Positions 24,561 to 38,058 of a DNA stretch of 64,000 bases are shown here, one piece after another. The position numbers and the translations under genes were made by a program. The stretch comes from Tahibacter harae (GTDB lineage Bacteria; Pseudomonadota; Gammaproteobacteria; Xanthomonadales; Rhodanobacteraceae): contig NZ_JANFQO010000003.1 of the NCBI RefSeq assembly GCF_024437735.1, positions 310,001 through 374,000 of the forward strand. Reading direction: 5' to 3'. Each line of letters begins with the position of its first letter. Positions within the stretch are counted from its first letter, which is position 1. Under the pieces are notes generated by a model. It worked only from the letters and a program-made list of their open reading frames with translations. It made no database searches and was not told where the DNA came from.

Positions 24561-25427
<867 letters not shown>

Positions 25428-25457
25428 GGCTTGAAACCTCCAATACTGGAACACAGG

Positions 25458-25484
25458 TTAGCACTCGCCTACACAGAGTGCTAA
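25458..25484 (-). promoter_or_regulatory. CIRCE operator (HrcA-binding) upstream of rpoH
   Basis: TTAGCACTC (25458-25466), a 9-nt spacer, and GAGTGCTAA (25476-25484) match the canonical 9-9-9 CIRCE inverted repeat at every arm position. It ends 30 nt before the rpoH ATG, in the probable 5' untranslated region or core promoter, where the HrcA repressor would block transcription until heat shock. Confidence 0.92.
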
Positions 25485-25532
25485 GTGCGCCGGGAGTTCC
25501 CTGTTCGGGACGTCGCCCAGCGAACGGCGATT

Positions 25533-25541
25533 AGTGTACCA
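25533..25541 (-). promoter_or_regulatory. Possible extended -10 promoter of rpoH
   Basis: On the minus strand TGGTACACT (extended TGn plus TACACT) lies about 50 nt upstream of the CIRCE arm. The -35 region is not recognisable, so this is weak; a promoter closer to CIRCE cannot be excluded. Confidence 0.3.
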
Positions 25542-25665
25542 GCAAGTACAGGAAAAGGGTTAGGGCGCTGTGAAAACGTTATTACGCTTTGGCGCCATAA
25601 TCGGCGGAACCTTCTAGAAGCCTGATTCAGCTGGACTTTCCCCCTCGCCGACCGGCATAAGCCGG

Positions 25666-27717
25666 TCATTGCGATGGCAGCGGTTCAGCCTCGTCGCCCT
25701 CTTCCAGCAAGCCCTGCAACAGCAGCACCAGTGTCGTCAGTTGGCGCGGCAGCTGCTTGGACGCCGCCTCGCGCCAGTGCTGCAGCACGGTATGCAGCTG
25801 GCGCGCGGTGTTTTCAAGGCCGAGCACGGCAAGTTCGTCGGCCAGGCCGCGCAGCCGCCGCAGCGCCGAGGCCGGCTGCTGGCGCAGCCCCTGGCGCGCC
25901 CACAGCACCAGTTCTTCGCGCACCTTCTCCAGCAACGCCTGCAGCGCGCCACGCGGCGGTGCCGGCGGCTGGCCGGGCAAGGTCTGCGCAGCGGCCGGAC
26001 TGGCCTGCAGCACGACGGCGCGCTGCGCCGTCAGCAGGCTCAGCGGCATCAACCGGACTTCGCCCTGGACCAGGCTGGCCGTGGCCGCGATGCGCCGCGG
26101 CGGATCGTCGCCGTCGGCCAGCAGCGCTGCCAGGGCATCGACTGCGGACGGCGCGGCCGTCTGGTACGGCAGGGCCAGCTGCACCTCATCGCCGGGCTCG
26201 GCCTGTTCCGCGTCGTCGGCGCAGAGCAGGCGCGCGTACAGGGTCTGCTCGGCCGCGTCCCAGCCCCAGTCCAGCACCGCCGCCACTGGCAGCACGTGCA
26301 CATGAGCAATGGCCTGGCGCGGCCGCACGAAATCCGGCTGGGCCGTGCGCAGGTGCCGTGCCAGCGCCGCGCCGCCGGGCTGGCGCAGCGGCGCCGCCAG
26401 TCCTTCCCAGGACTGCGCCGACAACGGCAGCACGCTGGTCTGGCGCGCCAGCGCGGAAATGTCCACCAGACCGTTGGCGCGCCGCCGCGCACCGCGCGTG
26501 ACGACCTGCGCCGCGGCCAGCTGGCGCAGATTCTGCCCGGCCACCCGCCGGCCCAGCAGCGGCGTGGGCGCCTGCCCGTCTACCCGCGGCCAGCTGCGTT
26601 CCAGCACGGTGACGGCCAGGGTGTCCGGATCGGCGAACAGGATGCGCGCGCCGTCGCTGCGCGCATCGCTCCAGCATTGCAGGCCCAGCGAGACCAGCTT
26701 GAGATGATCCAGCGCCACTTCGCCGCGCACACCCACGCCGAGGATCTGGCTCGCCGGCAGCACCGGCTGGGCCTGCGCTGCCGCCTGCGTGGCCGCGGCC
26801 AGCCGCGCCGCGGTTTCCGCCAGCACCTGCAACAGGCGCAGCGGATCAAAGCGGCTGGAGCGGTCGGCCTGGTCCTGTATCAGTTCGCGCAGCTCGGCCA
26901 GGCATCCCGCCGGCCAGCTCCAGCCCTGCGCGGCCAGGCGCTGCAGCAAGGCCGCGTGCGCCGCCTCCAGCCCGCTCCAGTCCTGGCTGCTACCGTCCAG
27001 CCAGAGCCGCGCGAGGAAGGCGTAGACGTCCTCGACCAGCGCCAGCTCCTGCGCATCCAGCCCCAGCGCCGCCGTGCGCGCATTGCGCGGCGCCAGCTCG
27101 ATCACTGCATCGGCCAGCCCGCCGGCCTGGCGGAAGGCCCATACCGCAAGGGCCACATGTTCACAATTCCCGCCGAGGCGGCAGTCGCAGCGCGCATGCG
27201 ACAGATTGCGCCGCGAAAAAAAACGCACGCTGCACAGCGGCAGATGCGCCACCGGCGCCGGCGCTTCCGGCCGCCACGCCGCCAGGCGCACCACCGGCGC
27301 GGCCGCGGCCTGGCGCGCCGCCTGTTCCAGCATCGCCGGGGCGAGGGCGGCAGCCAGGGCCGCATCGTCGAATTCGCCCGGGCTCCAGGCGGTTTCTGCT
27401 GCGGCCGGCGCGGTTTCCGCCGCCGGCGCCGAGGCCGCGAGCCAGTGCTGATAGGCCAGCACCAGGGTCACCCGATGCCGGCACAGCCCCGCCGCGGGAC
27501 AGGTACACAATGCCTCGCGCAGCGATTTGCCGACCGCGAGACTGGCGCGCTGCCCGTCCTCGTACTGCGCATGCACCGTGGCCTGCGCATCGACCTCGAT
27601 CTGCGGCAGACGGCCCTCGGCGATGTCCTTCTGCGCCCGCTTCACGAAGCCGGGATTGGCCAGCGCGGTCAGCGCCTCCACGCCGAGTTCGGCCAGATCG
27701 GCCCGCCGCGTGCTCAT
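25666..27717 (-). CDS. SWIM zinc finger protein with two SWIM motifs (MoxR-VWA cluster)
   Basis: A 683-residue cytosolic protein, last gene of the MoxR-VWA cluster. Two CxCx5CxH SWIM motifs are visible: CTCPAAGLCRH (Cys71, Cys73, Cys79, His81) and CDCRLGGNCEH (Cys177, Cys179, Cys185, His187). SWIM fingers bind DNA or proteins. The remaining 480 residues are Ala/Leu-rich with helical and beta segments (for example VGVRGEVALDHLKLVSLGLQCWSD) and no other domain that I can name. Its ATG overlaps the VWA gene stop by four bases (ATGA), so it is translated as part of the cluster. The start MSTRRADLAELG follows from that junction. Confidence 0.85.
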   Translation of the reverse strand: MSTRRADLAELGVEALTALANPGFVKRAQKDIAEGRLPQIEVDAQATVHAQYEDGQRASLAVGKSLREALCTCPAAGLCRHRVTLVLAYQHWLAASAPAAETAPAAAETAWSPGEFDDAALAAALAPAMLEQAARQAAAAPVVRLAAWRPEAPAPVAHLPLCSVRFFSRRNLSHARCDCRLGGNCEHVALAVWAFRQAGGLADAVIELAPRNARTAALGLDAQELALVEDVYAFLARLWLDGSSQDWSGLEAAHAALLQRLAAQGWSWPAGCLAELRELIQDQADRSSRFDPLRLLQVLAETAARLAAATQAAAQAQPVLPASQILGVGVRGEVALDHLKLVSLGLQCWSDARSDGARILFADPDTLAVTVLERSWPRVDGQAPTPLLGRRVAGQNLRQLAAAQVVTRGARRRANGLVDISALARQTSVLPLSAQSWEGLAAPLRQPGGAALARHLRTAQPDFVRPRQAIAHVHVLPVAAVLDWGWDAAEQTLYARLLCADDAEQAEPGDEVQLALPYQTAAPSAVDALAALLADGDDPPRRIAATASLVQGEVRLMPLSLLTAQRAVVLQASPAAAQTLPGQPPAPPRGALQALLEKVREELVLWARQGLRQQPASALRRLRGLADELAVLGLENTARQLHTVLQHWREAASKQLPRQLTTLVLLLQGLLEEGDEAEPLPSQ

Positions 27718-28838
27718 GCGCGGATCTTCCCGGCCAGCCACGCCGCCAGCTCGCCCGGCGTCATCGCGCCGACCTGGGCGCCGACCTTGACCAGCCGCGC
27801 CGCGGTCTCGCGATCGAACGCGGGCGTGGCCGCCGAATCCAGCGCAGCCAGTCCCAGCACCTGGGTACCGGACTGCACCAGCGCCTGCACCCGCCGCACC
27901 AGTTCGGCGGCATCGCGTCCTTCAAAAAAATCGCTGACCAGCACGACGATGCTGCGCGCCGGATTGGCTATGCAGCCTTGCGCATAGGCCACGGCCTTGG
28001 CGATGTCGGTGCCGCCGCCCAGTTGTACCTTCATCAACAATTCCACTGGATCGGATACATCGCGCGTCAGGTCCACCACTTCGGTATCGAACGCGACCAG
28101 CCGTGTCGACATACCGGGCAGGTTCCACAGGCAGGCAGCCATCACCGCCGAATGGATCACCGAATCGACCATGGAGCCGCTCTGGTCCACCAGCAGGATC
28201 AGCTCCCAGCGCTGCACATGCCGGCGCGAGCGGCTGGCGAACACGGGATCCTGGATATAAAGCCTGCGCCGCTGCGGATCCCAGCGCGCCAGGCTGGCGC
28301 GCACCGTGCGCGCGAAATCGAAATTGCTGGCCGCTTTCACGCGCGAGCGCCGGCGCCGGTCGCGCGGCCCGGCGAAGGCCTGGCGCACCTCGGCCGCAAG
28401 TTTCTCCATGATCCGCCGCACCACTTCGGCGACGATGCGCCGCGCCGCCGCCAATACCGCCGGGTTCATCAGGTGCTTGGTCTGCAGCACCGCACGCAGC
28501 AGGCTTTCCGACGGTTCCAGGCGTTCCAGCACGTCGAGATTGGTCACCACCTCGGTGATGCCGTAGCGCTCGACCGCGTCCTGCTCCAGGCGTTCTATGA
28601 CTTCCTGCGGAAACAGGCGGTGGACGTCGTTGATCCATTCCGGCGTGGTCAGCTGCGAGGCGCCGTCGCCGCCGCTGCGCTCGCCGCGGCGGGCGCGCTC
28701 GGGATCGCGGCCGTACAACCATTCCAGGGCGGCGTCGGCGCTGGCGATCTCGCCGTCCAGGCCGCCCAGGGACTGCTGCGCGGCCTCGCCCAGCAGCAGG
28801 CGCCAGCGTTGCAAAGGCGCGGGTATTTTCAAACTCAT
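27714..28838 (-). CDS. CoxE-like VWA domain protein of the MoxR cluster
   Basis: A 374-residue cytosolic protein. An N-terminal helical region (residues 1-210) precedes a von Willebrand A domain with an intact MIDAS: DQSGS starting at Asp218, Thr in QLGGGTDIAKA, and Asp in VLVSDFFEG. VWA proteins of this group work with MoxR AAA+ ATPases, which remodel or load a target bound through the metal site. Overlaps of 4 nt at both ends (with the DUF5682 and SWIM genes) show tight coupling. No signal peptide or membrane helix. Confidence 0.9.
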   Translation of the reverse strand: MSLKIPAPLQRWRLLLGEAAQQSLGGLDGEIASADAALEWLYGRDPERARRGERSGGDGASQLTTPEWINDVHRLFPQEVIERLEQDAVERYGITEVVTNLDVLERLEPSESLLRAVLQTKHLMNPAVLAAARRIVAEVVRRIMEKLAAEVRQAFAGPRDRRRRSRVKAASNFDFARTVRASLARWDPQRRRLYIQDPVFASRSRRHVQRWELILLVDQSGSMVDSVIHSAVMAACLWNLPGMSTRLVAFDTEVVDLTRDVSDPVELLMKVQLGGGTDIAKAVAYAQGCIANPARSIVVLVSDFFEGRDAAELVRRVQALVQSGTQVLGLAALDSAATPAFDRETAARLVKVGAQVGAMTPGELAAWLAGKIRA

Positions 28839-31195
28839 GCGGGAAGCTCCGGCGCCGCCACGCCCCAGGCGTGCAGCCGCGCCCAGATGGCCTTTTCGCG
28901 CTGCATGGCCCGCGCCAGCTGCTGCGCATCGCGCTCGGCCGGCAAAGCCGCGGTAAGCGCCGACTGCGGCAATTGCGTCGCCGAATGCAGGCGCAGCACC
29001 AGACTGGCGACACCGCCGCGCTCGCGCGCCGGCAGCCAGGCAAAGGCGCCGCGCAGGGCCGGCAGCGCCTGCAGGAAATCGGCGTCGTCCAGCGCGGCGA
29101 TGAGGCGATCCACCTCGGCGATGAAATCCTCGCGCTGGCTCAATTGTTCCCGCGCCAGCGCAAGCAGACCGGACAAGGCATCGCCAAGCTGCTCCGGCGC
29201 CAGCGCGCGCAGCAGCGCCACCGCCGCGGTCAGATCGAAGGCGGCCAGGCCGGACTGTTCTTCGGCCTGGGGCAGGCTGAGCAGCGCGCCCAGCGCCGCG
29301 CCGCGGCTCAGGGGCGCGGAATCCGGGCTATGCACCTTGCGCGCGAACACGGCCAGCGCCCGCGGGCTTTCCACGCTCAGCGGCAGCGCATCGTGCGCGG
29401 CCTGGCCGCGCACCAGATCGCGCAGCGCAATCTGCGCGCGCAAGTGCGCAAAACCCTGCGCCGGTGCGATCGCCGCGGGCGGCTCCAGCAGCCACAGGGC
29501 GCGGTCGAACGCACTCTCGATCACGCTGCGCAGCAGCGGCGAAGCCGCCATGGCCAGGGCCTGGCCGTGGCGGAACAGCGGATACAGCAGGCCCAGCGCC
29601 TCGCCCAGCGGTTCGAACTGTGCGCTCGCCGCGACGGCTTCGCGCAGATCCTGCAGCAGCGCGCCGCTGGCACCGGACAGCCCGGCCAGGGCCGCCGCGT
29701 TCAGGCCCTGCGCCAGTGCGGCGACATCGCCGCGCGCGCCGCGCAGCCGTTCCTCCAGCGCCGCCTGGGCCGCTTCGGCCAGAGTCGCGCCATAGGCGCC
29801 GGCTTCGATCAGCGCGGCCTGCTGTTCCAGCGGCTGGTCCAGCTGCCACAGTTCCTCGCGCTCGCCGGACAGGGCCAGCTGCGGCCCCTGCACGCGGCGG
29901 ATGCCGGGAATCTGCAGCAAAAGCAATCGGTGCAGAATGTGACTCTTCCCGCGTCCGGCCGGCGTGAGCAGGTCCAGCCGCAGCTCGCCGCGCAATACCA
30001 GCCCGGCCGCTTCCAGCTCCTGCGCCAGCGCCGCCAGCAGCGGCGGCTGCGGCGTGGCCGGTGCAAGCCGGCCGCGCACGTCGCCGGCCAGCACGTCCAT
30101 CATTTCCACCAGCAGCGGCGCGGTGCCGGCGCGGATGCGGCCGCGGTAGGTCCACGGCAGCGGCACGTCCTGGGCTTCTTTCAGCAAGGTCGCCGCGGCC
30201 GCGTCCAGCCAGTCCGCGCGCAGCGGCACGGCGTGGCCGCGCAATTGCGCCAGGCCCTGGGCGTGGGTATGCAGCGCGATCAGGTCCGCGGTCGAGGCGA
30301 CCAGCCTGCGCTGGCGCAGGCGCTGGGCCGTGTCCTGCATCAGCCGCAGCCCCGCGGCCTGCGCGCCGTGCTCCCACAGCCATTGGTAGTACAGCGGCGA
30401 GGACATGCCCGAGGCATAGCCCTGGAACGCATCCAGCCGCTTGAAGCTGTAGGGCACGAGAAAGGAACCGTGGCGCAGCGCGGCGTCCACCGGCGGCTGC
30501 GGCGTGGCCGGCTCCTGCGCCGCGGCCGGCAGCCCGCGCCACAGCCGCGCCAGCGCCGGCGCGTGATAGCCGCCGCAGACCACCAGCACCGCGCCGTCGC
30601 CGCGCGCCATGGCCCAGGCGATCCAGGCGGCCATGTGCGTTTCGCGCGCGGCGTTGCCGCAGGAACCCGGATCGTCGCCGCGCAGGTGCCCGAAATACAG
30701 GTCCAGTTGTGTCGCCAGCGCGTCGGTATCGGTTTCCTGCTCGAACAGGTGATCCCACAGCGCGTCGCGGCCCTCGATGCCCAGGCTGTCTGCCAGGGCC
30801 TGCTCGTAGGCGTCGGCGCGCAGCGCATACGCGGCTTCGGGCGCGTCGGCGTAGCGGTTGGGCAGTTCGGCGAAGGCGTCGTGCCAGGCCGGCAGGTCGA
30901 TGAAGCGCACGCAGGCGCCGCTGTCGCGCCCCAGCACCAGCGCCTGCCATTCCGGCGAATGCTCGGCGAACGGCGACCACGAACCGCGCTGCACGCCGGT
31001 GCCGGAAAGATAGCTGTAGATCGCCAGCGGCAATTCATGCCCCAGGAACAGCTCATCCAGGCGCGCATTGAAATCCGCCGGCCCTTCGATCAGCACGTAG
31101 CGCGGCCGCAGCGCGCGCAGCTGCGCCGCGACCAGGCGCGCGCAGGCCGGCGAGTGATGGCGCACGCCGATGATGTGCGGTGCGGCGTTGCTCAT
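28835..31195 (-). CDS. DUF5682 family protein of the MoxR-VWA cluster
   Basis: A 786-residue protein. The N-terminal third carries GVRHHSPACARL, PRYVLIEGPADF, and later VLVVCGGYHAPALARL. Paired His/Glu motifs of this kind recall the TraB/ChaN/EreA-type fold, but that link is my inference. The family is DUF5682, known from MoxR-VWA neighbourhoods and without an assigned activity that I know of. The middle and C-terminus are helical and Ala/Leu-rich. Four-base overlaps join it to the MoxR gene before and the VWA gene after. No export signal. Confidence 0.85.
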   Translation of the reverse strand: MSNAAPHIIGVRHHSPACARLVAAQLRALRPRYVLIEGPADFNARLDELFLGHELPLAIYSYLSGTGVQRGSWSPFAEHSPEWQALVLGRDSGACVRFIDLPAWHDAFAELPNRYADAPEAAYALRADAYEQALADSLGIEGRDALWDHLFEQETDTDALATQLDLYFGHLRGDDPGSCGNAARETHMAAWIAWAMARGDGAVLVVCGGYHAPALARLWRGLPAAAQEPATPQPPVDAALRHGSFLVPYSFKRLDAFQGYASGMSSPLYYQWLWEHGAQAAGLRLMQDTAQRLRQRRLVASTADLIALHTHAQGLAQLRGHAVPLRADWLDAAAATLLKEAQDVPLPWTYRGRIRAGTAPLLVEMMDVLAGDVRGRLAPATPQPPLLAALAQELEAAGLVLRGELRLDLLTPAGRGKSHILHRLLLLQIPGIRRVQGPQLALSGEREELWQLDQPLEQQAALIEAGAYGATLAEAAQAALEERLRGARGDVAALAQGLNAAALAGLSGASGALLQDLREAVAASAQFEPLGEALGLLYPLFRHGQALAMAASPLLRSVIESAFDRALWLLEPPAAIAPAQGFAHLRAQIALRDLVRGQAAHDALPLSVESPRALAVFARKVHSPDSAPLSRGAALGALLSLPQAEEQSGLAAFDLTAAVALLRALAPEQLGDALSGLLALAREQLSQREDFIAEVDRLIAALDDADFLQALPALRGAFAWLPARERGGVASLVLRLHSATQLPQSALTAALPAERDAQQLARAMQREKAIWARLHAWGVAAPELPA

Positions 31196-32298
31196 GGCAG
31201 GCGGTGGCGCGCCTCGAAATACGCGCGCCAGTGATTGCCGCTCTTCTTCGCCACCTTCTGCTCGAAATAGCGGCGCAGCTTGGCGCGGTCGTCCGCGTCG
31301 TCCTTGACCACGGTGCCGGCGATGCAGTCGACCAGGTCCGCCGGCTCGCCTTCGCGCTGCTCCAGGAACCAGGCGCGTACACCTACCGCGTGAGCGACGT
31401 TCACCGCCTCGGCGGTGGACATCACCGCATTGAGCCGGTCCATGCCGCCTTCGCGGCGCGCGCCGTCCTGGCTTGCGCGCAGATCGCGGAACGTGGTCAC
31501 CAGCAGTTCCAGCACGCTGCCCGGCACGCTGTGCGGAATGCCGCTGCGTGCGAGCAGTTCGGCAGAAGCCTGCTGCACCAGGGCCAGCTCGCGCTCGTAG
31601 TCGAGGATGGGGAAGACCGTCTCGAAATCGAAGCGGCGCTTGAGCGCGGCCGACATCTCGTTCACGCCGCGGTCGCGCGTATTGGCCGTGGCGATGATGT
31701 TGAAGCCTTCGCGCGCATACAGCATGGCGTGCTCGCCGGACAGCTCGGGCACGGCCATCACGCGGTCCGACAGCATGCCGAGCAGACAGTCCTGCACTTC
31801 CAGCGGCGCGCGCGTGATTTCCTCGAAGCGCACCACGCGGCCGTCGCGCATGCCCTGGTACAGCGGCGCCGGCACCAGCGCGCGCGGGCTGGGGCCTTCG
31901 TTGATGAGCAGGGCGTAGTTCCAGGAATACTTGATCTGGTCCTCGGTGATCGAGGCGCCGCCCTGGATGGTCAGCGTGGAAACGCCCGAGACCGCCGTCG
32001 CCAGCAGTTCCGACAGCAGCGACTTGGCCGTGCCCGGCTCGCCGACCAGCATCAGCCCGCGTCCGGTGGCCAGCGTCACCAGCATGCGTTCCACCGCCGC
32101 GACCGGCGCGACGATCTTGCGCGTGACGCCGAGCTTGTCGTCGCCCAGCACGAAGGCGCGCGCGGCCTTCAGGCTCAGCGCCCAGCCGGGCGGGCGCGGG
32201 TCGCGGTCCGCTGCGGCCAAGCGCTGCAGCTGTTCGGCATAGAGGATTTCCGCCGGCGGGCGCTGCAGGGAAACCGCGGTGTCGTTGTTCTTGGCCAT
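31192..32298 (-). CDS. MoxR-family AAA+ ATPase
   Basis: A 368-residue AAA+ ATPase. Walker A is GEPGTAKS (residues 86-93), the Walker B segment is VVRFEEI with Glu in place of the usual Asp at the first acidic position, sensor 1 lies in IIATANTRDRG, and the arginine-finger region is ALKRRFDFETVFP. MoxR ATPases act as chaperones with a VWA partner, here encoded two genes downstream. The start MAKNNDTAV has GAGG 5 nt upstream; an ATG three codons earlier overlaps that ribosome site. It begins a run of four genes linked by ATGA overlaps, 83 nt after the DUF4132 gene. Confidence 0.93.
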   Translation of the reverse strand: MAKNNDTAVSLQRPPAEILYAEQLQRLAAADRDPRPPGWALSLKAARAFVLGDDKLGVTRKIVAPVAAVERMLVTLATGRGLMLVGEPGTAKSLLSELLATAVSGVSTLTIQGGASITEDQIKYSWNYALLINEGPSPRALVPAPLYQGMRDGRVVRFEEITRAPLEVQDCLLGMLSDRVMAVPELSGEHAMLYAREGFNIIATANTRDRGVNEMSAALKRRFDFETVFPILDYERELALVQQASAELLARSGIPHSVPGSVLELLVTTFRDLRASQDGARREGGMDRLNAVMSTAEAVNVAHAVGVRAWFLEQREGEPADLVDCIAGTVVKDDADDRAKLRRYFEQKVAKKSGNHWRAYFEARHRLP

Positions 32299-32381
32299 GA
32301 TCCTCATCTCTACATCAACGTTGACGGCCGCAGCCGGTGCGGCGCGGTTTTGCCAGCGGTATGCGGTACGACGGCAGCGCC

Positions 32382-35300
32382 TCAGCCATTGGTCAGGTAT
32401 TCCATATCGCGCACCAGCTCGCTGGCGGCGATGGCGTCGAGTTCGCTCAGCGGCAGCGGATCCTGCATGTCGCCCCAGGCCGAAGGCTTGCCGACCTGGA
32501 TCTGGCGCAGTTTCTGCTCGGCGTATTCGCCGACCAGGCCGACGATGATGCCGGGATCCAGTTGCAGCTCGATCACGCGGTCGCCCTTGAGCGGCTTGGT
32601 GAAATACCAGATGCAGCCGCCGTCCTGGGCCTGGCCGCGGCGCCAGCCCTTGTTGACCAGGCCGAGCACGCGGCCGGTGGGCACGACCCGGTCCAGCCAG
32701 CGCTCCAGCTTGCGCTGGCCCAGTTCCTCCGGTGTGAGCGCGTGGCTGTCGCGGCCGAGCTGGGCGAAGGGCTGCAGCAGTTCGTAGTCGGCGAACAGCT
32801 GGCCGAAGGCGGCGGCCTGGTCGGCCGGCAGTTCCAGCGCATGCGGCAAGCCAATGCGCCGGGTTTCGTCCAGGCCCAGTTGCAGCGGATTGTCTTCGGC
32901 ATCGCTGAAGCTGCCATCCTCGGCCACGCGGAAACAATGCAGCAGGCGGCCGCCGTGGCTGTCCTCGGCGCTATCCATTTCGTACACGCCCCAGACCAGG
33001 CGCTGCACCAGATGGCGCAGCAGCGGATGGCCGGCGAGGAACTGGCGGAACACGTCCTCGCTCCAGCGCCGGCGCGTGCACATGGCGACTTCCAGGCGCT
33101 GCACCTGCTGCTGGGCGATAGTGCGCGCATCTTTCTTCAGCGCCTTGAACCGTTCCACCGCCGCGGCCGACAGTGCGGCATCGTCGGTCTTCCTGGGCTT
33201 GGGCAGATCGGCCAGACGCGCGCCGTCGGCATCGCTGACGTACGGCTTCAGCGCCTCGTCGAAGCCGACGCGGAACTGGCGCGGGCCGAAATCCAGGATC
33301 AGGATGCCGCTTTCGTCCAGGCCCAGGTCCGGCGCCAGGCGGTCTTCCAGTTCCTCGGCGCTGAGCCCGCGCGCCTGCGCGATGGCGTCGATCTTTTCCC
33401 GTGCCTTGTCCTGCAATCCCTTGAATTTCACTTTCTGCGCGATGCCGTTGAGCAGCATCAGCGCCACGTCGCTGCCGATCGCGGCCAGCACGTCCAGGCC
33501 GGCCACGGCGCGCGCGTGCGCTGCTTCGCCGGGCCAGGCGCGGATCAGCGGCGTGAGCCGGCGCGCCGTATCGTCGTTGCCGAACCAGCCCAGCGCATTC
33601 AGCGCCCAGCCTTCCTTGGACGGCGAGCCGGCGCCGAGCCAGGCGTTGAACAGGTCCCAGGCGAAATCCGCCAGCGATTCGCGCGTGCAGGCTTCGGCCA
33701 CCTGGCCTATGCCGGCATACAGTTCCTCGTGGCTGGGGAATGCCAGCATGTCGCCCAGGTGCTGCAGCGCTCCGTCGGACAGGGCCTTGCCGCTGCCGCG
33801 CAGCAGCGGCCGGCGCCAGCTGCGCGGCGCCCAGAATGCCGGTGCCGGAGCGCGTTTACTGGGAAAGCGGTCCAGCGCATCTTCCTGCAGCACGCTGCCC
33901 AGGCCGGCGACCACGTCGTCGCGGCCGTAGCGCGCGGCCATCTCCAGCAGCAGCGCCTCGTGCCCGTTCGCCGCCAGCAGGCGCAGCGCCGAGCCGGCGC
34001 AGTCGCGCGCTTCGCCGGGCTTGCCCAGGGCCGGCGCGATCAATGCCGCCGCAGCATGCTGCGGATAGCGCAGCAGCCAGTCGCGGCCGAAGCCGCGCAA
34101 GGTCTTGAGCCTGGTCAGCGCGCGGGCTGCAACGACGGCGAGTTCGGTATCCGCATAGCGCAGGGCCAGCCCGGTAAACGCGCCGGGATTGCGCCGTATC
34201 GCGCGCAGCACGCCGGGCCAGGCGCGCGGGCCGTAGCGCGCGGCGACGAATTCCACGTCGCTTTCGGAACTGGCTTCGCCGACCAGTTCGTTCCAGAAGG
34301 CGACGCCGACGTCGTCCGGCAGCTGGGACAGCGCCGCGCCGTCGATGCTGACGTAGTAATGCTTGCGCAGCGGCTTGATCTGCCGCCACAGCGCAACCAG
34401 CGCGGCGGCGTCAACGGCCTTGACCGCCGCCAGCGCCTGTTTGCGCAGTTCCTCGTCGCGGACCCTGTCCAGGCTGGTCCAGTCCGATTCAAAGCCCAGG
34501 TCCTTGATCGCCTGCAACAGCGCGTTGTTGCCCTTGTAGCGATTGCGCTGCCATTCGGACAGTTGCGCCGCGCGTTCGCGTTCGGCGGCCGGCCAATGCT
34601 CCTGCAGCGGCAGCACCAGCGGGGCGAGCCCGCCCACGCTGGCGATGGTCTTGCGCGGCTTGTGCCAGGGCGGATCGGCCAGCACGCGCGGCAGTTCGGT
34701 CGCGTCGGCGACGTCGGCCGGGCCGGCCAGCTGTGCGTGCAGACGTTCGATCAGCGCATGGGCCGCGGGACTGAGCCAAGGCTGCAGCGACGCGAGCGCA
34801 GCTTCGTTGTTGGCGATGAGCTGGGTCAGCAGCGGCGCCTGCGCGCCCGCCTCGCGCGGGCCGGCGCCCAGCCCGCCCGCCAGTGCCGCGAGCGCCGCCA
34901 GCGGCCAGCGCTGCGCGGCCTGGTTCAGGCGCAGCAGATGGCTCTTGCTCGTGCCCGCGATGCGCGCCAGCGCGGCCACTGCCTCGGGCAGGCCGATATG
35001 GCGCAGGAGTTCCGCGCAATTCTCGCTGGCCGGATCGCCGAGCAGTATCGGCAGCATGTCCAGGCGGCGCTCGCGCAGCAGGGTCGCCAGTGCGCCTTTG
35101 TCGTGGAAGAAATAGTGGTGTTCCGTGCGTGCGCCCTGCAGCGCCGCCAGTGCCGCCGGATCGCGCAGGCTTACGCGCAGCCACTGCGCCACGCCAGGCA
35201 GGGTCGCACCGGCCGCAGCGGTCAGGCGCATTGCGGTTTCGTCGGCGAGCTGCGCATCGTCCAGCACCACGGCCATGACCGCCTGGCGCGCCGGATGCAG

Positions 35301-36413
35301 CGCGGCGATGCGCTCGCGCAGGCGCTGCGCACACTGTTGCCACACATCGGCGTCGGCCGCAGCCAGATGGGCGCGGAACAGCCGTTCCTCGTGACTCAGC
35401 GGCGACTGCCAGTGCGCGCCCAGCGCCGCACTCACCTGATAGCCGGCGCTGTACTTGCGTTGCAGCGTATTGCCCTGCCAGCGTGTGTCCGAACCTACCT
35501 CGAAAGTCTGCGCCAGCAGCAGCAGGTCGAAAGCCTGCACCAGGCCGCGTTCGGCGATCAGGAATTCGGCCAGGCTGCCGGAATGGGTCTCGCCGCGTAC
35601 CACGCTCGCGGCCCAGGCCAGCAGCAGCGCGTCGGATTCCTCGCTGCCGCGCAGGCTGCGCTGCTGCACGCGGGTCCAGGTTTCCTGCAGCAATGCGTGC
35701 AGGGCCGGATCGGTCGCCGGCAGATCCAGCTCGGCATTCTGCAGCAGCGTCTCGCGCAGGCTCAGCCAGGCCACGCGCGGATCGCGCGGCTCGATGGGTG
35801 CGGGAAAGCGCCGCGTCGGCAGCGCCGTGGCATTGCCTTCGAGATAGCGCCAGGCCGCGTTGTAATCCAGCGGCTCGCCCGCGGCCAGCCAGGGCGGTAC
35901 GCCGGGCAGCTGTGGCAGGGCGTCGAGGTCCAGTTCTTCCGCCGCGATGGCGGCAGGCGTGGCGGGCTGCCGCGCCGGTGCCGTGGACACTATGGCTGCC
36001 GCAGCTTCGTACGGCGCCGCCACCGGCGCAGCGGATGCGCCGGACGCTGAAAAATCTTCCTTCTTTTCGCCAGCAGCGGAATCCACAACATCCGAGGCCG
36101 CGGCAACCGCCGCCGCACCGCTTCCGGCCGCCGCTTTCTTCACCGTCTTCGCTGCCGCCGGCGCGGATGCCGCAGCCGCGGCCGGCGCTGCACCAGACGC
36201 AACGCCATCGCCCCGCTCCACATAGCCCTTGCCGGTCTTCTCCGCGACCAGCTTGAGCACGGCCGCGGCGGCCTTGGCCTCGTCGGCGAAATTCTTGGTC
36301 TGGCTCTGGCCTTGGGTGCCTATGCGTCCCCAGCGCAAATTCACATCGGCGCCGGCCTGCTCCACTTCCCAGAATTTGTTCGAGGTGCCTTCGGAAAACT
36401 CGAAACGGCGCAT
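32382..36413 (-). CDS. WGR-DUF4132 giant protein of the MoxR-VWA cluster
   Basis: A 1343-residue cytosolic protein, first gene of the cluster. Residues 1-75 form a WGR domain (RRFEFSEGTSNKFWEVEQ, then LRWGRIGTQGQSQTKNF), a module found in PARP proteins and in bacterial MolR-type proteins. An Ala/Pro-rich low-complexity linker follows to about residue 165. The body is a long helical, HEAT-like array (for example PEAVAALARIAGTSKSHLLR), and the last 250 residues (from about FRQFLAGHPLLRHLVQRLVWG to the end) are the DUF4132 core with GLVNKGWRRGQAQDGGCIWYF. Function unknown; probably the large substrate or effector of the ATPase-VWA pair. Confidence 0.87.
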   Translation of the reverse strand: MRRFEFSEGTSNKFWEVEQAGADVNLRWGRIGTQGQSQTKNFADEAKAAAAVLKLVAEKTGKGYVERGDGVASGAAPAAAAASAPAAAKTVKKAAAGSGAAAVAAASDVVDSAAGEKKEDFSASGASAAPVAAPYEAAAAIVSTAPARQPATPAAIAAEELDLDALPQLPGVPPWLAAGEPLDYNAAWRYLEGNATALPTRRFPAPIEPRDPRVAWLSLRETLLQNAELDLPATDPALHALLQETWTRVQQRSLRGSEESDALLLAWAASVVRGETHSGSLAEFLIAERGLVQAFDLLLLAQTFEVGSDTRWQGNTLQRKYSAGYQVSAALGAHWQSPLSHEERLFRAHLAAADADVWQQCAQRLRERIAALHPARQAVMAVVLDDAQLADETAMRLTAAAGATLPGVAQWLRVSLRDPAALAALQGARTEHHYFFHDKGALATLLRERRLDMLPILLGDPASENCAELLRHIGLPEAVAALARIAGTSKSHLLRLNQAAQRWPLAALAALAGGLGAGPREAGAQAPLLTQLIANNEAALASLQPWLSPAAHALIERLHAQLAGPADVADATELPRVLADPPWHKPRKTIASVGGLAPLVLPLQEHWPAAERERAAQLSEWQRNRYKGNNALLQAIKDLGFESDWTSLDRVRDEELRKQALAAVKAVDAAALVALWRQIKPLRKHYYVSIDGAALSQLPDDVGVAFWNELVGEASSESDVEFVAARYGPRAWPGVLRAIRRNPGAFTGLALRYADTELAVVAARALTRLKTLRGFGRDWLLRYPQHAAAALIAPALGKPGEARDCAGSALRLLAANGHEALLLEMAARYGRDDVVAGLGSVLQEDALDRFPSKRAPAPAFWAPRSWRRPLLRGSGKALSDGALQHLGDMLAFPSHEELYAGIGQVAEACTRESLADFAWDLFNAWLGAGSPSKEGWALNALGWFGNDDTARRLTPLIRAWPGEAAHARAVAGLDVLAAIGSDVALMLLNGIAQKVKFKGLQDKAREKIDAIAQARGLSAEELEDRLAPDLGLDESGILILDFGPRQFRVGFDEALKPYVSDADGARLADLPKPRKTDDAALSAAAVERFKALKKDARTIAQQQVQRLEVAMCTRRRWSEDVFRQFLAGHPLLRHLVQRLVWGVYEMDSAEDSHGGRLLHCFRVAEDGSFSDAEDNPLQLGLDETRRIGLPHALELPADQAAAFGQLFADYELLQPFAQLGRDSHALTPEELGQRKLERWLDRVVPTGRVLGLVNKGWRRGQAQDGGCIWYFTKPLKGDRVIELQLDPGIIVGLVGEYAEQKLRQIQVGKPSAWGDMQDPLPLSELDAIAASELVRDMEYLTNG

Positions 36414-36460
36414 GGCCTTCCCTGCAGACGTGCGGAACGGCCAACGCTAATCGCAGCCGG

Positions 36461-37141
36461 TTACAGCGTCCAGTCCACCGGACTCTTTCCGTGGCGCATC
36501 AGGTATTCGTTCGCGGCGGAGAAATGGCCGCAGCCGATGAAGCCGCGGTGGGCCGACAGCGGCGAGGGATGCGGCGCCTTGAGCACGCAGTGGCGGCGGC
36601 CGTCGATCAGCTTGCCCTTGGCCTGGGCGTAGGAGCCCCACAGCATGAACACCAGGCCCTCGCGCTCGCGGTTGAGGGTGTCGATGATGGAATCGGTGAA
36701 GCCTTCCCAGCCCTTGCCCTGGTGCGAGTTGGCCAGGCCCTGTTCCACCGTCAGCACCGCATTGAGCAGCAGCACGCCCTGTTCGGCCCAGCGCGTTAGG
36801 CAGCCGTGGCGCGGCGGCGAGAAGCCGAGGTCGCGCTGCAGTTCCACGTACATGTTGCGCAGCGACGGCGGCACGGCGATGCCCGGCTGCACCGAGAAAC
36901 ACAGGCCGTGGGCCTGGCCCGGGCCGTGGTAGGGGTCCTGGCCCAGGATCACCACTTTCACCTGATCGAACGGTGTGGCTTCCAGCGCGGCGAAGATCTG
37001 CTTCGGCGGCGGATAGATGATCTTGCCGCTGCGCAGTTCGCTGCGCAGGAATTCCGACAGGGCCTGCATGTCGGGCCGGTCCAGATAGGCACCGACGCGC
37101 TCCTTCCAGGAAGGTTCCAGCTTTACCCGCGTTTCGCTCAT
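36461..37141 (-). CDS. ung: Uracil-DNA glycosylase, family 1
   Basis: Removes uracil from DNA to start base-excision repair. All family 1 motifs are present in 226 residues: the water-activating loop [18 protein letters not shown], the Pro-rich loop in [12 protein letters not shown], the uracil-binding LLLNAVLTV, and the minor-groove loop [10 protein letters not shown]. The start [12 protein letters not shown] overlaps the preceding regulator gene stop by four bases, so both are co-translated. Length is normal for Ung. Confidence 0.97.
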
Positions 37142-37989
37142 GCAGTTTCCGTCTGCAGCGTGGCGCGCGAATGCTGGCCCACCCGCAGCTGGAACAGCAG
37201 CTTGGTGATGAGCAGGCGTTCCTCGATGGGTTTCTCCACCAGATCGTTCGCGCCCTGGCGGATCAGTACCGCCTGGTTCTTGGGATTGTCGTCGCCGGTC
37301 ATCACCAGCACCGGCAGCTGGGCCTTGCCGTAGCCGTAGTCGTTGCGGATGCGTTCGAGCAGGTCGCCGCCCGTGAGTTCGCCCTTGAGGTTCACGTCGG
37401 TGAGGACGATGTCGGCGCCGGGCACCTTGCCCTGGGCCTTGGCGGTTTCCAGCAGGGCCAGGGCGTCTTCCACGCTGACCACGTGCAGCACGGTCAGGCC
37501 GTGCTTTTCCATCATGCGCCGGGTCGCCAGGGCGACCACGCGGCTGTCCTCGACGTAGAGCACTTCGCCGGTGACATTGGATTCGGGCCGCACATAGCCG
37601 CGGATGAAGGCCGCCAGCGCGTTGAAGCCCAGCGACTTGTCGAAATAATCGGTGACCGCGTCGGACATGGTGCGCGCCACCAGGCGCTCCTGCACGTCGC
37701 CGGAAACCACCACGATGGGGATATAGGCCTGGGGCGAGTGTTCGCGGATGTGCTGGGCCAGTTCCAGCCCGTCCATGTCCGGCAGGCGCAGCGCGGTGGT
37801 GACGAAATCGACCACGCCGGATTCGAGCTGTTTCTTGGCTTCGGCGCCGCTTTCGCAGGCCAGCACGGTCACGCCCGGCAGATCGGACTTGAGCACCTGC
37901 TCGATCAGGCGGCGCACGACCTTGGAGCCGTCCACGACCATCACCCTGGGCTCGTCGCTGGCGATATGACGGGTGAGATGGGCTTCCAT
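37138..37989 (-). CDS. Two-receiver response regulator, first receiver degenerate
   Basis: A 283-residue protein made of two CheY-like receiver domains with no output domain. The second (residues about 145-275) has the expected phosphorylation site: acidic pair in LYVEDSRV, phosphoacceptor Asp in DIVLTDVNL, Thr in VMTGDD and Lys in VEKPIEE. In the first, the acidic pair is reduced to VVDGS and the phosphoacceptor is Ala ([14 protein letters not shown]), so it probably cannot be phosphorylated. The start MEAHLTRH has a GGGGGG run upstream. It may act as a phosphate sink or a protein-binding adaptor; its sensor kinase is not in the window. Confidence 0.87.
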
Positions 37990-38058
37990 TAGGTTCCCCC
38001 CGAGGAACTTCCGCGTAGTACGCAAAGATTCTGGTACGGCACCCGGATCACCTGCGGC

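Follow-up and report, generated by a model that had tools for sequence, protein, structure and literature searches.

A yehI/yehLMPQ-type operon of Tahibacter harae encodes a conserved MoxR/VWA machine with a probable TIKI-like DUF5682 protein

In the MoxR/VWA pair NorQ/NorD, as set out in the available parts of two papers, a target is remodelled and metal is inserted (PMC13036017; PMC9976466), and a finger of the VWA protein is described as entering the MoxR pore while ATP drives remodelling of the target (PMC13036017). A MoxR-vWA pair with a third component has also been proposed to form conflict systems (available text of PMC7159879), and YehL of Escherichia coli appears as one of seven named MoxR subfamilies in the accessible part of PMC3893208. 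Here we analyze a 64,000-nt stretch of the T. harae genome (contig NZ_JANFQO010000003.1, positions 310,001 to 374,000; hereafter the window), whose minus strand encodes, between positions 25666 and 36413, a WGR-DUF4132 protein, a MoxR AAA+ ATPase, a DUF5682 protein, a VWA protein and a SWIM zinc-finger protein. An initial annotation, made from the DNA letters alone, had placed these five families on one strand, and Pfam matches above the curated cut-offs, which define our domain calls, confirmed all five. We conclude that the locus encodes a real, conserved five-part machine and belongs to a gene set that already has names in E. coli. To this we add a survey of its two architectures and a probable link of DUF5682 to the TIKI superfamily, which is absent from the literature searched.

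The K-12 strain MG1655 carries yehI (DUF4132), yehK, yehL (MoxR), yehM (DUF5682), yehP (VWA) and yehQ (SWIM) in this order on one strand. By BLASTP, the 1343-aa WGR-DUF4132 protein of the window (32382-36413) was 31% identical to YehI over 1241 columns; the 368-aa MoxR ATPase (31192-32298; AAA_5, E 5.1e-33) was 75% identical to YehL over 358 columns; the 786-aa DUF5682 protein (28835-31195; PF18934, E 4.5e-104) was 47% identical to YehM over 779 columns; the 374-aa CoxE-like VWA protein (27714-28838; PF05762, VWA_CoxE, E 3.8e-60) was 69% identical to YehP over 366 columns; and the 683-aa double SWIM zinc-finger protein (25666-27717; PF04434, E 2.1e-6, two stretches) was 36% identical to YehQ over 628 columns. 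The two operons share the five families and their order, and in both the VWA and SWIM genes overlap by 4 nt. Only K-12 has the small gene yehK, between the DUF4132 and MoxR genes, and a broken second DUF4132 gene, yehH. Its WGR domain lies in a separate gene, yehF, and YehI has no WGR match, whereas in the window the domain is fused to the N terminus of the DUF4132 protein (residues 4-70, 36204-36404; PF05406, E 1.8e-19). Unlike the MoxR and DUF5682 genes of the window, yehL and yehM are not joined by an ATGA overlap. It is almost certain that the five genes are a YehI-LMPQ-type operon encoding one machine. The initial annotation had put the locus forward as an undescribed system, which does not stand, since the same arrangement exists as yehI/yehLMPQ and YehL is already a named MoxR subfamily; the name is said to come from the original MoxR review.

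The same annotation knew of no demonstrated mechanism, and here we agree: no function of the operon has been demonstrated in the literature searched, where searching by gene name was too unspecific and subscription papers were mostly uncovered. This literature contained no mention of DUF5682 or DUF5691, nor of MoxR combined with DUF4132 or with VWA plus DUF5682, and DUF4132 on its own was seldom mentioned. The available part of one paper reports a transposon inserted in the metG/DUF4132/yeh region of one E. coli lineage (PMC9334617).

The unity of the gene set was examined in 95 loci for which DUF5682 was the only search criterion. They comprise K-12, 14 loci found in 13 further genomes of the phylum, and 80 loci that were the best of at least 575 confirmed relatives in the genome collection. 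The best 80 are top matches, which makes the sample uneven; by their titles they come from Proteobacteria, Actinobacteria, Bacteroidota, Planctomycetes, Verrucomicrobia, Myxococcota, Firmicutes and a cyanobacterium. MoxR was encoded directly upstream of DUF5682 in 88 of the 90 loci with room for it, and 85 of 89 loci encoded VWA no more than 4 kb downstream; two of the four exceptions (L038, L077) carry the VWA gene further on, behind two DUF4132 genes. SWIM genes were present in 66 of the 95 loci and DUF4132 genes in 67, with both in 61 and all five families on one strand in 54. The order thus recurs across phyla, and the initial annotation was right to treat the five genes as one unit. The flanking priA, rpoH, ung, ftsX and ftsE, housekeeping genes all matched above NCBIfam cut-offs, would suit a chance row of five unrelated housekeeping neighbors, but an order kept across phyla, overlapping genes and two mutually exclusive full sets make such a row extremely improbable, and we regard this explanation as refuted by the fixed order around DUF5682.

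Two architectures were found. Architecture 1, that of the window, is DUF4132-MoxR-DUF5682-VWA-SWIM, and architecture 2 is SWIM-DUF5691-MoxR-DUF5682-VWA. Among the 21 loci that lack a downstream SWIM gene, 18 encode another SWIM protein and DUF5691 upstream of MoxR, and the remaining three (L068, L099, L107) are short or cut; DUF5691 was absent from all 66 loci whose SWIM gene is of the first, downstream kind. Since the upstream SWIM and DUF5691 genes appear only where the downstream SWIM gene is missing, we conclude that a single MoxR-DUF5682-VWA core is combined with one or the other of two sets, each made up of a solenoid-type protein and a SWIM protein, and that the two sets exclude each other. 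For architecture 2, Pfam confirmed DUF5691 in the three proteins tested and placed SWIM above the cut-off in one of two. An annotated plasmid of Deinococcus taeanensis carries SWIM, DUF5691, AAA, DUF5682 and VWA genes in this order, together with one small extra gene; it shares the core and a SWIM protein with the window, but DUF5691 stands in for DUF4132 and the SWIM protein is a different one, encoded upstream rather than downstream.

The motifs expected of the core and of the SWIM protein are nearly universal in these loci. Walker A was found in 88 of 89 MoxR proteins, D-x-S-x-S in 88 of 88 VWA proteins and CxC..CxH in 63 of 65 SWIM proteins. A Walker B pattern proved too loose (71 of 89 MoxR proteins matched it) and was discarded. 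In the window, both the MoxR Walker A motif (GEPGTAKS, 32020-32043) and the metal ion-dependent adhesion site (MIDAS, DxSxS-T-D) of the VWA protein are intact, the latter made up of DQSGSM (28170-28187), GGGTD (28005-28019) and SDFFEG (27918-27935), and the CxCx5CxH fingers of the SWIM protein lie at 27475-27507 and 27157-27189. The MoxR protein matched midasin rings in the PDB (E 1.9e-10). No PDB chain matched the VWA protein at 0.01, and its 374 residues contain no second Pfam domain above the cut-off.

The DUF4132 protein is predicted to be a HEAT-like solenoid. In an AlphaFold2 model of residues 160-1343 (predicted local distance difference test score [pLDDT] 90.7), a long alpha-solenoid is followed by an alpha/beta C-terminal part; residues 160-1024 (33342-35936), which form the predicted HEAT-like part, are almost wholly helical, and the DUF4132 domain proper covers residues 1064-1257 (32643-33224; PF13569, E 6.7e-49). 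Profile A3 of the family matched HEAT-like alphaRep proteins at E 1.3e-7. The best Foldseek match was CAND1 at E 8.4e-4 with a template modeling (TM) score of 0.13, and TM scores were also low for other HEAT proteins. For DUF5691, a solenoid is suggested by HEAT_2 matches that fall short of the cut-off.

A WGR domain was fused in 28 of 110 DUF4132 open reading frames (ORFs), in 21 of 69 loci, when a model without iteration was used; counting with an iterated model was abandoned, the model having grown into DUF4132. WGR domains also occur in ORFs apart from DUF4132 in three loci (L045, L047 and L036), of which L036 reaches a contig edge and L047 has several operon genes split into two ORFs. Runs of two or three DUF4132 genes are present at some loci. 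Two extra DUF4132 genes were seen in the window's own genome (L039, contig C12, 6738-10394 of the locus; L040, contig C79, 9422-13066 of the locus), with no MoxR, DUF5682 or VWA gene nearby. Immediately downstream of the DUF4132 gene at L040 lies a 358-aa ORF, and Pfam gave no match at 0.01 for it or for three other nearby ORFs.

According to the available part of PMC6254334, the TIKI family includes ChaN and Ere, and its active members carry a set of two His and two Glu residues. Of this superfamily (TraB/GumN, ChaN and erythromycin esterase), ChaN and TraB align with the N-terminal 220 residues of the window's DUF5682 protein (30536-31195) from the first GxxH motif to the second. In single one-to-one profile comparisons, without database calibration, residues 1-290 of DUF5682 scored 90.8% against ChaN (PF04187; E 1.2e-6, 179 columns, first to second GxxH) and 24.5% against TraB (PF01963; E 8e-4, 205 columns that cover all motifs in order). 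A TraB-ChaN comparison, which served as positive control, scored 93.3%, and unrelated operon families, reversed profiles and the C-terminal part of DUF5682 gave at most 1.5%. The domain contains the motifs GVRHH (residues 10-14), E37, D100, RExxM (184-188) and GGYH (208-211). Residues invariant in an alignment of 53 sequences (A2) include R12, H13, E37, D100, R184, E185, M188, G208, H211 and Y260, and H14 is conserved in at least 90%. The strand-helix order of an AlphaFold2 model (pLDDT 91.4) fits the TIKI core, a parallel beta-sheet with helices, which a whole-chain fold search did not recover. DUF5682 differs from ChaN at V11, which takes the place of the Glu in GExH, and from the superfamily in a large added helical C-terminal part. 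On these profile and residue matches, DUF5682 is quite likely a member of the TIKI superfamily, and it is about an even bet that it is an active hydrolase.

The best overall explanation of these results, to which we give a probability of roughly 40%, is a TIKI-like DUF5682 protein activated by the MoxR/VWA pair, with recognition by the solenoid and SWIM proteins. A MoxR hexamer and its VWA partner would spend ATP on remodelling DUF5682, which is encoded between them, so that its TIKI-like active site (H13/H14, E37 and H211) would be loaded with metal or opened, in a manner similar to the remodelling of nitric oxide reductase by NorQ/NorD. A trigger would be recognized by the SWIM protein together with the solenoid protein, the latter being either DUF5691 or a DUF4132 protein that frequently bears a DNA-binding WGR domain. 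Nucleic acid, or a stressed complex bound to it, is the likeliest trigger, and the two proteins would carry the activated hydrolase to its substrate. NorQ/NorD resembles the window pair in combining a Walker A-bearing MoxR AAA+ protein with a VWA protein that has a MIDAS; its target is a respiratory enzyme, whereas the target proposed here is a soluble TIKI-like protein accompanied by solenoid and SWIM partners. Because the gene between MoxR and VWA encodes an invariant His/Glu set, DUF5682 as client is the simplest reading, and the comparison tentatively suggests, somewhat short of an even chance, that MoxR and VWA act on it. A nucleic-acid or DNA-damage trigger is more doubtful.

The same features can be arranged differently. 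A ChaN-like DUF5682 might itself carry heme or metal that MoxR and VWA would insert into a client encoded elsewhere, which would agree with the closest DUF5682 profile match being to the heme-binding family PF04187, with the CoxE-like nature of the VWA protein and with the metal insertion for which MoxR/VWA pairs are known (PMC13036017; PMC9976466, available parts). Such a cofactor chaperone would leave the SWIM and WGR domains unexplained, however, and among the 17 architecture-2 loci whose neighborhoods were clustered, no enzyme that needs a cofactor was a recurrent neighbor, so we think it very unlikely.

Several observations weigh against DUF5682 as a TIKI-like client of MoxR and VWA. The position of the first Glu of the TIKI 2His/2Glu set is V11 in DUF5682, although TraB profiles also lack this residue and have Thr there (GTxH). 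The Ere family was not recovered by the DUF5682 profile (0.1%); with the same shallow Ere alignment, ChaN (9.5%) and TraB (0.4%) likewise failed. Architecture-1 sequences alone scored 90.7% against ChaN over only 32 reported columns, and architecture-2 sequences alone scored 74.8% over 108. A Foldseek search of the whole DUF5682 model against the PDB gave nothing at E ≤ 0.001; the best match was a karyopherin (E 0.046), and the best 50 matches listed comprised weak helical-repeat matches and no TIKI entry. A PDB search with profile A2 returned only weak matches of the helical part to ATP synthase subunit b (E ≥ 0.026), and phmmer with the DUF5682 protein (P0003) found nothing. Three loci (L079, L091, L118) lack MoxR or VWA at the expected place. 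The sequence distances of the five proteins correlate across the 54 complete loci (r 0.87-0.99; 0 of 500 permutations as high), but with no outside gene for comparison this could be explained by shared species history. Of eight further E. coli records, three (L232, L233, L236) have yehM annotated as broken, by frameshifts or by a stop within the gene, and in one of the three yehL is frameshifted as well. Finally, DUF5682 could be a co-worker of MoxR and VWA rather than their client.

In the other five of these eight records, the yeh genes were not flagged as broken. Ratios of nonsynonymous to synonymous change (pN/pS) relative to K-12, obtained for four of the five unflagged copies, were 0.06-0.15 for yehM and 0.04-0.10 for yehP; for yehL they were 0.02-0.07 in three copies, the fourth having no synonymous change, and for yehQ they were 0.11 and 0.44 in two copies, its length differing in the other two. 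Given the low pN/pS in intact copies and the broken yehM elsewhere, we conclude that the yeh genes are under purifying selection where they are kept and have been lost in part of the species.

The operon is unevenly spread. Of 398 genomes from the phylum, 14 had DUF5682; in the family the count was 17 of 147, made up of 8 of 8 genomes of the window's genus and 9 of 139 outside it. DUF5682 was rare on plasmids (31 of 72,556 records, with three chromosome-sized records among the matches listed) and in phages (1 of 50,697, an unannotated scaffold). On a mobilizable plasmid of Iodobacter fluviatilis, pl1 (L231), the complete operon is accompanied by another DUF4132 gene, by transposases and by a neighboring type I restriction-modification system. 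Within the window's genus, the rpoH-operon-ung setting is shared by the window and the three relatives with enough sequence (L034, L199, L202), and two truncated contigs (L200, L201) are consistent with it on the side of rpoH; more distant copies, in L203 and in L204 and L205, which come from two further genus genomes, lack the rpoH and ung flanks. L204 and L205 are two diverged operon copies about 43 kb apart in one genome (G444). Identities between the window and L034 were 91% for MoxR, 82% for VWA, 68% for DUF5682, 66% for SWIM and 59% for DUF4132, with 97% for rpoH and 85% for ung; mean identities across the 54 loci were 0.63, 0.55, 0.40, 0.30 and 0.29 for the five proteins in the same order. 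SWIM and DUF4132 are therefore the fastest-changing proteins both within the genus and across phyla.

Patchy spread in the phylum and family, fast divergence of recognition-type parts, runs of two or three DUF4132 genes and the restriction-modification system next to the Iodobacter plasmid operon are features that an anti-phage or conflict system might have, in which the solenoid and SWIM proteins would sense an invader and MoxR/VWA would free a toxic DUF5682 effector, and a conflict role has been proposed for three-component MoxR-vWA systems (PMC7159879, available text). Like the window operon, those ternary systems consist of MoxR, vWA and further linked genes, and they have a variable effector domain that is fused to vWA or lies next to it, but their third component is a VMAP, iSTAND, FtsH or beta-propeller protein, and the DUF4132, DUF5682 and SWIM proteins of the window match none described in the available text of PMC7159879; terms for the operon's families are absent from its main text, and the bpMoxR model matched the window only below its cut-off (E 0.0053). 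In PADLOC-DB, the four core proteins had no match except a weak one of SWIM (PDC-S62, E 0.0047), and the match of the DUF4132 protein was confined to its WGR part (E 1.7e-6). At 1e-10, 141 flanking ORFs (of 228, from 31 of the 95 loci) matched 11 PADLOC families with 12 family-member matches, compared to 11 and 13 for 136 control ORFs (of 172, from 15 stretches of the same proteobacterial genomes); the output consists of families, so only the family-member sums are comparable, and a few test ORFs are architecture-2 parts. The operon thus showed no PADLOC excess of the kind that residence in defense islands, as raised in the initial annotation, would predict. Moreover, yehLMPQ were present at a cover of at least 80% in 5162 of 5426 E. 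coli genomes, DUF5682 is in every genome of the window's genus at a site fixed among close relatives, and plasmid and phage copies are rare. The conflict half of the earlier proposal of a conflict or stress-response role is weakened by the PADLOC results, the flanking ORFs and the fixed genus site, with the single plasmid copy beside a restriction-modification system on its side. Overall, we consider a defense function quite unlikely.

Activation of DUF5682 by MoxR/VWA, our preferred reading, leaves the trigger to the solenoid and SWIM proteins, and work on Deinococcus radiodurans bears on what it might be. In the available part of PMC8533742, the drA0165-drA0166 operon, which encodes a DUF4132 protein, and the WGR gene dr2173 are strongly induced on depletion of DdrO, a damage-response repressor, and MolR of E. 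coli is cited as a member of the LexA regulon. The operon might accordingly be read as an SOS-type DNA-damage module whose WGR-DUF4132 and SWIM proteins would bind broken or stalled DNA while the MoxR/VWA/DUF5682 core would remove or process protein complexes at such places. In K-12, a LexA-like site, CTGGATAAAATTACAG, lies 9 nt ahead of yehF (L005, 10450-10465), and the window operon follows ung on the same strand. The Deinococcus genes need not belong to this operon type, however, and in one relative (L202) one more WGR-DUF4132 gene sits between ung and the operon. The window has no LexA-like site near the operon start; CTGTN8ACAG, with at most one mismatch, occurred upstream in 11 of 60 non-actinobacterial loci when 10.8 sites were expected, and GAACN4GTTC upstream in 1 of 20 actinobacterial loci with 0.27 expected. 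A two-mismatch LexA scan of the K-12 stretch was uninformative. We regard a DNA-damage module as unlikely, if a little less so than a defense system.

As the initial annotation had described, the last four genes are joined by ATGA overlaps, at 31192-31195 (MoxR/DUF5682), 28835-28838 (DUF5682/VWA) and 27714-27717 (VWA/SWIM), all on the minus strand. The DUF4132 gene stands apart: the MoxR ATG (32298) lies 83 nt past its stop, with no ATGA coupling. The longest open frame of the SWIM gene begins with a GTG at 27741, and an ATG at 27717 gives the ATGA overlap; the ATG is most likely the start. Because the stop of ung lies only 47 nt ahead of the DUF4132 gene on the same strand, the operon transcript may begin further upstream. 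A consensus scan of 25300-36700 found no sigma-70-like promoter (0 vs. 0.6 expected), and a terminator scan of the same interval gave no excess (4 vs. 5.3 expected). The operon matches its flanks in GC content, both overall and at third codon positions, and so gives no hint of recent import. A flanking oxidoreductase gene and a response-regulator-like gene had NCBIfam matches below the cut-offs. The latter lies upstream of ung and overlaps it by 4 nt (36461-38025 for the two genes), and the genes from ftsE to the SWIM gene therefore run on one strand with no large gap.

The window operon is one member of a gene set that is also present, so far without a function, in the best-studied bacterium. 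If MoxR and VWA do act on DUF5682, a hydrolase client would be added to the MoxR/VWA pairs that have so far been tied to metal-enzyme maturation. It is possible, though we think it somewhat unlikely, that this would be the first recognized MoxR/VWA machine with a dedicated TIKI hydrolase client, an ATP-gated, metal-loaded DUF5682 that would sit on a HEAT-like solenoid (WGR-bearing DUF4132, or DUF5691) and on a SWIM protein, with these recognition parts reading damaged or foreign nucleic acid. Read in this way, an orphan operon becomes a testable claim about named residues and partners.

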